Assembly (NCBI GenBank): GCA_009844405.1
Contig: VYBO01000142.1
Span: forward strand, 1 to 48,975
DNA: 48,975 bases
Source of the DNA: Acidimicrobiaceae bacterium
Lineage (GTDB): Bacteria > Actinomycetota > Acidimicrobiia > Acidimicrobiales > Aldehydirespiratoraceae
Reading direction: 5' to 3'
In this document: positions 28,337-30,616 of the stretch, piece after piece
Numbering within the stretch: the first letter of the stretch is position 1
Layout: every line of letters starts with the position of its first letter
Notes under the pieces: generated by a model
The model's input: only the letters and a program-made list of their open reading frames with translations
Databases searched by the model: none
What the model was told of the DNA's origin: nothing
Program-made: the position numbers and the translations under genes

Positions 28337-28365
28337 TTGGACGCGAGCGCTGAGAGGGCTAGTGT
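28337..28365 (+). promoter_or_regulatory. leuA promoter
   Basis: TTGGAC (28337-28342) and TAGTGT (28360-28365) are spaced by 17 bases. The transcript would begin about 28372-28374, at the GTG of the leucine leader peptide. Confidence 0.7.
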
Positions 28366-28373
28366 TGACGGCG

Positions 28374-28409
28374 GTGACCACCTTCGCCGACCTCCTGCTT
28401 CTCGTGTAG
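28374..28409 (+). CDS. leuL: leuA leader peptide MTTFADLLLLV
   Basis: Eleven-codon open frame, GTG to TAG, encoding MTTFADLLLLV with four leucine codons in a row (CTC CTG CTT CTC). It begins at the predicted transcription start, so it is leaderless. Its stop codon overlaps the left arm of the first hairpin of the attenuator. Ribosome stalling at the leucine run when charged tRNA-Leu is scarce would control leuA, as known for amino-acid biosynthetic leaders in actinobacteria. Confidence 0.8.
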   Translation: MTTFADLLLLV

Positions 28410-28469
28410 GCGAGCGCCACATATCGGTGCTCGCCGATCCCCTCGTGCCTCTGGCCGGGGGGATTTGTG
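28409..28469 (+). promoter_or_regulatory. leuA transcription attenuator (two hairpins)
   Basis: Hairpin 1 has a 10-base stem GGCGAGCGCC / GGTGCTCGCC (28409-28418 with 28426-28435, one G-U pair) and a 7-base loop. Hairpin 2 pairs ATCCCC (28437-28442) with GGGGAT (28459-28464) and is followed by a T-rich stretch TTTGTGCTTGTT, giving a terminator-like end 47 bases before the leuA ATG. The alternative antiterminator pairing was not resolved by eye. Confidence 0.65.
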
Positions 28470-28515
28470 CTTGTTGGGACCCGAACCCGAACCCTCCCCC
28501 ACAAAGGACAAGACG

Positions 28516-30249: not shown

Positions 30250-30616
30250 CCGCGCTCGCTCCGAATCTCGGGTTGTTTCTGGGCGCATCGCACCCGTTTT
30301 CCCACCGAGACCGGCCGAGACAGCGAGCCCGGCGCGAGCGAGCCGGAGGGCGCTCTGCGATCGACGCGGCCTCCTCGTCGAGCCGGTCCACATCCGCCGG
30401 CGCGAGCGAGCCGGAGGGCGCTCTGCGATCGACGAGGCCTGGTCGGGCGCCCATCTGGCGGATGAACAAGTGCTGCCCGCTCTGGCAGACTGCCAGAGGC
30501 CGGGCGGATAGCAATAGGCTCGGGGAACTGCGAGAGGCGTTGAGCGAGGCCGTGGCCCGAGCGGCCCGTGAGCGAAGCGAACAAGAGCGGGAAAGACACG
30601 ACGCGAGAGATCTCAG
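30250..30616. other. Gene-free stretch with repeats between leuA and the hydratase gene
   Basis: No gene is visible here. It holds a 38-bp direct repeat (30329-30366 and 30397-30434, beginning CCGGCGCGAGCGAGCCGG), a perfect 8-base hairpin CTCTGGCA / TGCCAGAG at 30480-30498 with a 3-base loop, and a copy of the core of the dispersed repeat (30552-30593). The hairpin could terminate leuA transcription, though no T-run follows. Confidence 0.7.

Follow-up and report, generated by a model that had tools for sequence, protein, structure and literature searches.

The stretch of Acidimicrobiaceae DNA analysed here, referred to below as the window, spans 48,975 nucleotides (contig VYBO01000142.1) and carries leuA on the forward strand behind a promoter, a short leader frame with a run of leucine codons, and two hairpins, H1 and T (Table 1). 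The leader reads GTG-ACC-ACC-TTC-GCC-GAC-CTC-CTG-CTT-CTC-GTG-TAG, and the 11-codon frame with four consecutive leucine codons, described in an earlier note on this DNA, can thus be read directly from the sequence. The same note placed a 10-pair hairpin so that it touches the stop codon. The hairpin is real, but the two elements overlap, the G of TAG being the first base of H1. The second hairpin followed by a T-rich stretch ahead of leuA was found as described, with the tail interrupted in the window (TTGTGCTTGTT). The folding of the region surpasses that of 200/200 shuffled sequences (z -2.8). The gene upstream of the element lies on the minus strand and is divergent; therefore, T does not serve as the terminator of an upstream operon. 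The promoter boxes and their spacing likewise agree with the earlier description, whereas its rating as a good promoter seems high: the match to the consensus, which is that of E. coli, is only moderate, and the promoter is absent from a strict sigma-70 scan of the window. A 49-nt direct repeat in two copies, 94% alike and 68 nt apart, lies just 3' of leuA (window 30329-30445).

Table 1. The leuA leader region in window coordinates
Feature	Position	Strand	Remarks
Whole element, promoter to terminator tail	28337-28475		5' of leuA
-35 box TTGGAC	28337-28342	+	TTGRC-type box ~17 nt before -10 in most relatives
-10 box TAGTGT	28360-28365	+	8 nt to leader GTG; 17-nt spacer from -35
Leader frame MTTFADLLLLV, predicted leaderless	28374-28409	+	11 codons; GTG at 28374, TAG at 28407-28409
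Regulatory Leu codons CTC-CTG-CTT-CTC	28392-28403	+	Run conserved, CTT enriched
Hairpin H1, 10 bp, 7-nt loop	28409-28435	+	Arms 28409-28418 and 28426-28435; one of 10 pairs G-U; folding; both-sided changes at 5/10 pairs
Terminator hairpin T, 12-13 bp	28437-28464	+	Arms 28437-28449 and 28453-28464; bulged T at 28446; one base between H1 and T; folding; both-sided changes at 6/11 pairs
T-rich tail of terminator, TTGTGCTTGTT	28465-28475	+	T-rich in aligned relatives too
Likely leuA Shine-Dalgarno AAAGGA	28503-28508	+	Sequence
leuA, 2-isopropylmalate synthase, 577 aa	28516-30249	+	Start ATG; TIGR00970 E=1e-231, exceeds curated cut-off

Conservation of the element in the order

We located leuA in the genomes of relatives and compared the DNA upstream of it. 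A leader frame consisting of the leucine run, one further codon and a stop is kept in 42 members of the order (window included), and the stop is TAG in 40 of them. The alignment of relatives for the leucine run and the stems, suggested in the earlier note as a check of its proposal, thus came out in its favour, both stems showing compensatory changes. Base pairing is maintained in 93.5% of the cells of a 35-sequence alignment. Changes on both sides of a pair were found in 11 of the 21 pairs against 5.2 in shuffles, none of 500 shuffles reaching the observed value, and the covariation signal is lost once the pairing partner is slid. With its GC-rich stem, T-rich tail and covariation, T is, judged by its sequence, a conserved intrinsic-terminator-like hairpin. 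The leucine codons of the leaders are also unusual in composition: CTT makes up 59/164 (36%) of them, against 78/1055 (7%) in the coding sequence of leuA.

The promoter displays a conserved arrangement as well. A -10-like hexamer is mostly found 7-9 nt before the leader ATG or GTG in aligned relatives, a few of which have no clean -10 placement, and a TTGAC- or TTGGAC-like box precedes the hexamer by about 17 nt. The -10-to-start spacing suggests that initiation at the start codon of the leader is conserved, and the constancy of this spacing in the order provides better evidence for the promoter than the consensus score.

At E<=0.01, a covariance model built on the element detects it in 198 of the 248 genomes that were sampled from the order and in 56 of 297 from the phylum, where many matches are weak; the E-values of the models come from a short calibration. 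The named relatives carrying the element are Acidimicrobiia metagenome bins, several of them labelled Acidimicrobiaceae; the model matched none of the records that have a similar LeuA and are labelled Alphaproteobacteria or Kiloniellaceae. A search of Rfam 15, T-box and gamma-proteobacterial leader families included, returned no family at the gathering score, and a single chance match on the minus strand (E=0.78) at a lax threshold. The literature searched holds no earlier report of attenuation in Acidimicrobiia.

Several genomes of the order depart from the common layout. In one of the same family as the window (L018, G019), no remnant of the element precedes leuA. In another (L015, G004) the leader and hairpins are intact, but roughly 12 nt, among them the -10 box, are lacking, and leuA is interrupted around residue 54; either an assembly error or decay would account for these defects. 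In two families of the order (L043, G053; L046, G060), leuA is preceded by leaders devoid of H1 and the terminator, MSFLLDLRLLSPAA and MRIELLALRLMHPAS, each followed by one GC-rich hairpin; these resemble the LEU-element kind.

The conservation pattern bears on the level at which control would be exerted. Control would be translational if the leuA Shine-Dalgarno box were hidden, a mechanism proposed for the LEU element of actinobacteria, and LEU elements too have a leucine-run leader before leuA (PMC1262725). We consider this very unlikely in view of the conserved terminator, of the interval between leader start and leuA, which ranges from 130 to 267 nt within the genus of the window across an unconserved spacer, and of the fact that no pairing to the region around the start of leuA was seen to be conserved among the sequences compared.

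Codon runs and downstream genes

The genes 3' of the model matches were read for a sample, mostly of the strongest matches. They comprise two distant types of leuA, leuS, ilvB and leuB; both leuA types carry the element, at times together in one genome. A second model, built from the leuA, leuS and ilvB elements, reveals a further element in the majority of genomes from the genus of the window, and those that were read precede leuB-ilvE-cimA. In one genome (L108; G311, contig C78), the model matches partially ahead of a serC-like aminotransferase gene and serA, where a possible leader, MKLTRRSNK, has no clear codon run.

The composition of the run, taken as the four codons preceding the last codon of the leader, shifts with the gene that follows. 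Leucine accounts for 93% of the run in leuA leaders (n=65) and for 70% in leuS leaders (n=5). The ilvB leaders contain 41% Val, 36% Leu and 18% Ile (n=11), and the leuB-ilvE-cimA leaders 57% Ile, 23% Val and 0% Leu (n=14). The association between codon run and gene is pronounced (Fisher p about 1e-45, from counts that are phylogenetically non-independent). In the last group the run matches the products of the genes, since the enzymes encoded by cimA and ilvE act in isoleucine and branched-chain synthesis. The genome of the window itself carries such a second element, with Ile codons, before leuB-ilvE-cimA (L240; G000, contig C134, ~11.9-12.1 kb, minus strand), with the leader MANRPSIAIP, a -10 box, TATGCT, at 7 nt from the GTG, and the same layout. 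Within a single genome, codons that change with the gene are difficult to account for other than by codon-specific sensing of charged tRNA, and the comparison of leaders offers strong evolutionary evidence for such sensing by the ribosome.

T by itself is a plausible intrinsic terminator, and it could in principle be an ordinary constitutive or bidirectional one, preceded by a leucine run by chance. The conservation of the element throughout the order and the gene-matched runs contradict this explanation, which we regard as having next to no likelihood. Conservation, covariation and the matching of codon run to gene instead argue that the leucine attenuator proposed in the earlier note was mostly the right reading, and the element is very probably a ribosome-mediated transcription attenuator of leuA. 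Its parts follow one another as in a leader-peptide attenuator, from codon run through hairpin and terminator to gene. Most likely, it would reduce the synthesis of leucine under ample leucine supply.

H1, T and the translating ribosome

The attenuator would operate as follows. Going by the conserved promoter spacing, RNA polymerase is expected to initiate at or beside the GTG at 28374, and a 70S ribosome would load onto the bare 5' end and translate MTTFADLLLLV. With ample Leu-tRNA, the ribosome would finish the frame and depart, T would form, and transcription would end before leuA. When leucine is short, the ribosome would stall in the leucine run and more polymerases would read through, as the tracking of the gene by the codons suggests. 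The position of H1 is such that its folding would report that of the ribosome.

We modelled the ribosome states of 103 elements with a footprint of 26 nt, the size used in PMC13236596. The pairing of H1 falls from 0.98 through 0.88 and 0.54 to 0.12 as the ribosome moves over run codons 1 to 4, and is 0.00 with the ribosome at the stop. The codon run therefore spans exactly the zone where the ribosome shifts from sparing H1 to unfolding it. The pairing of T stays at 0.94-0.97 in all modelled ribosome states, and T is retained in folding when the leader is blocked.

Pairing between the segments was also examined for cognate preference, a test that is blind to any pairing identical in all members. 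The arms of H1 and T favour their own over foreign partners by 3.6-7.1 kcal/mol, and beyond these arms no segment pair is clearly better in its own combination; a borderline preference was seen for the leader with the 3' arm of T in the ilvB/leuB group (-0.99, se 0.50). Neither folding nor the complementarity and cognate tests revealed a conserved alternative helix that could act as an antiterminator mutually exclusive with the terminator. Three candidates were considered and rejected. A 2:3 antiterminator, combining the 3' arm of H1 with the 5' arm of T, could form weakly, over 5 bp, in many leuA elements and lacks cognate preference. The leucine run is frequently complementary to the 3' arm of T owing to the pyrimidine-rich leucine codons and the G-rich arm, again with no cognate preference in leuA elements. 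An extension of the terminator through the last bases of H1 (GCCGAA with TTTCGTGC) is mainly confined to the family of the window. The link from H1 to T thus involves no base pairing visible by comparison of these sequences. Because no base-paired antiterminator was found, the two hairpins do not explain the step from stalling to read-through. This lowers the standing of the element as a classical attenuator, not as one that works like it. Mutations in the leuA leader of Streptomyces coelicolor, as cited in PMC1262725, had effects inconsistent with classical attenuation and, like the interrupted tail of T in the window, speak against the attenuator reading.

Two accounts of H1 appear about equally likely. 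H1 might be the ON structure: a ribosome on the first codons of the run leaves H1 folded, which hinders termination, and once the ribosome has reached the stop codon, H1 is unfolded and T can form. The geometry is that proposed for the M. tuberculosis ilvB1 leader, minus the shared antiterminator strand, where the ribosome at the stop codon is described as masking the antiterminator (PMC13236596). The two extremes of modelled H1 pairing are consistent with this arrangement, as are the overlap of H1 with the stop codon, whose third base opens the hairpin in 75 of 101 elements, and the gap of 0-1 nt between H1 and T in most leuA and leuS elements. The gap is looser in leuB elements (1-4 nt), however, and H1 and T can pair simultaneously, so that a steric or kinetic effect must be invoked.

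Conversely, H1 could, in the manner of hairpin 1:2 of trp, serve for pausing and protection, its folding letting T form and transcription stop. A stalled ribosome would then open H1, and either the freed 3' arm would disturb T by weak, unspecific pairing, or the polymerase would no longer be held for the ribosome. The ribosome does cover H1 when positioned on the last two codons of the run, and weak GGYGC:GUGCC complementarity is present in many leuA elements. A U followed by a G is found 9-13 nt past H1 in about 33 of 35 leuA elements, suggesting a polymerase pause mark roughly 11 nt after the hairpin. In E. coli, hairpin pauses occur at a distance of about 9-13 nt after the hairpin. Against this tentative account, the 3' arm of H1 has no cognate preference for either terminator arm, and the U-G mark is partly due to the inner stem of the terminator and missing from Ile-type elements.

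Relation to known leader-peptide systems

The earlier note regarded a leaderless leader peptide as unusual. A leaderless start as such is not novel: such leaders have already been reported in actinobacteria, before leuA and leuS of Streptomyces and in mycobacterial cysteine-related frames. The elements of Acidimicrobiia and of some other members of the phylum may, tentatively, constitute a distinct class of attenuators of branched-chain genes. This class would combine a leaderless frame, a stop codon forming the base of the first hairpin and a terminator almost directly after it, and would dispense with a base-paired antiterminator, control being exerted through the position of the ribosome at the first hairpin. 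The findings would extend leader-peptide control, with predicted leaderless starts, to a large, mostly uncultured order and define a small putative regulon (leuA, leuS, ilvB and leuB-ilvE-cimA) in which the run varies with the gene and the layout of the hairpins is constant. They also supply a natural series in which to study how termination could be controlled by a ribosome when the hairpins share no competing strand.

The leader attenuators of E. coli leu, trp and his consist of a codon run, a downstream hairpin, a 2:3 antiterminator and a terminator. The element shares with them the codon run, the hairpin after the run and the terminator before the structural gene, and differs in its predicted leaderless start, in a first hairpin that begins in the stop codon and in having no 2:3 antiterminator.

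In Streptomyces lividans, RNA-seq has identified leaderless leucine-run leaders, LeuL1 before leuA and LeuL2 before leuS (PMC8079986). Both resemble the present leaders in the leucine run, in the target genes and in a transcript that starts from the leader start codon (here predicted). LeuL2 is followed by a hairpin and a U stretch, as here; LeuL1 has no typical terminator, whereas the leuA leader described here is followed by tandem hairpins with a terminator, H1 starting from the stop codon. The LEU element, present in most Actinobacteria, likewise places a leader peptide with leucine codons before leuA in the same phylum. It forms a pseudoknot whose base stem reaches the Shine-Dalgarno box of leuA, with no terminator (Seliverstov et al. 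2005, PMC1262725). The present element, with simple tandem nested hairpins, a terminator and an unconserved distance to leuA, appears not to belong to it. Leaderless polycysteine short frames acting as attenuators in mycobacteria (Canestrari et al. 2020, as cited in PMC13236596) are, in that account, similar in being regulatory frames with a codon run ahead of biosynthetic genes; they concern cysteine and other genes, and no conserved terminator hairpin was seen with them (PMC1262725). The attenuator of M. tuberculosis ilvB1 and the ilvB-II motif of Corynebacterium (PMC10272879) share with the element a run of branched-chain codons in a short leader before a branched-chain gene. A mutually exclusive antiterminator has been proposed for ilvB1 and none is conserved here. 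The ilvB1 leader is the best tested analogue: it has an intrinsic terminator, its response to branched-chain amino acid supply has been demonstrated, and replacing its LVVI codons with alanine abolishes the response (PMC13236596).
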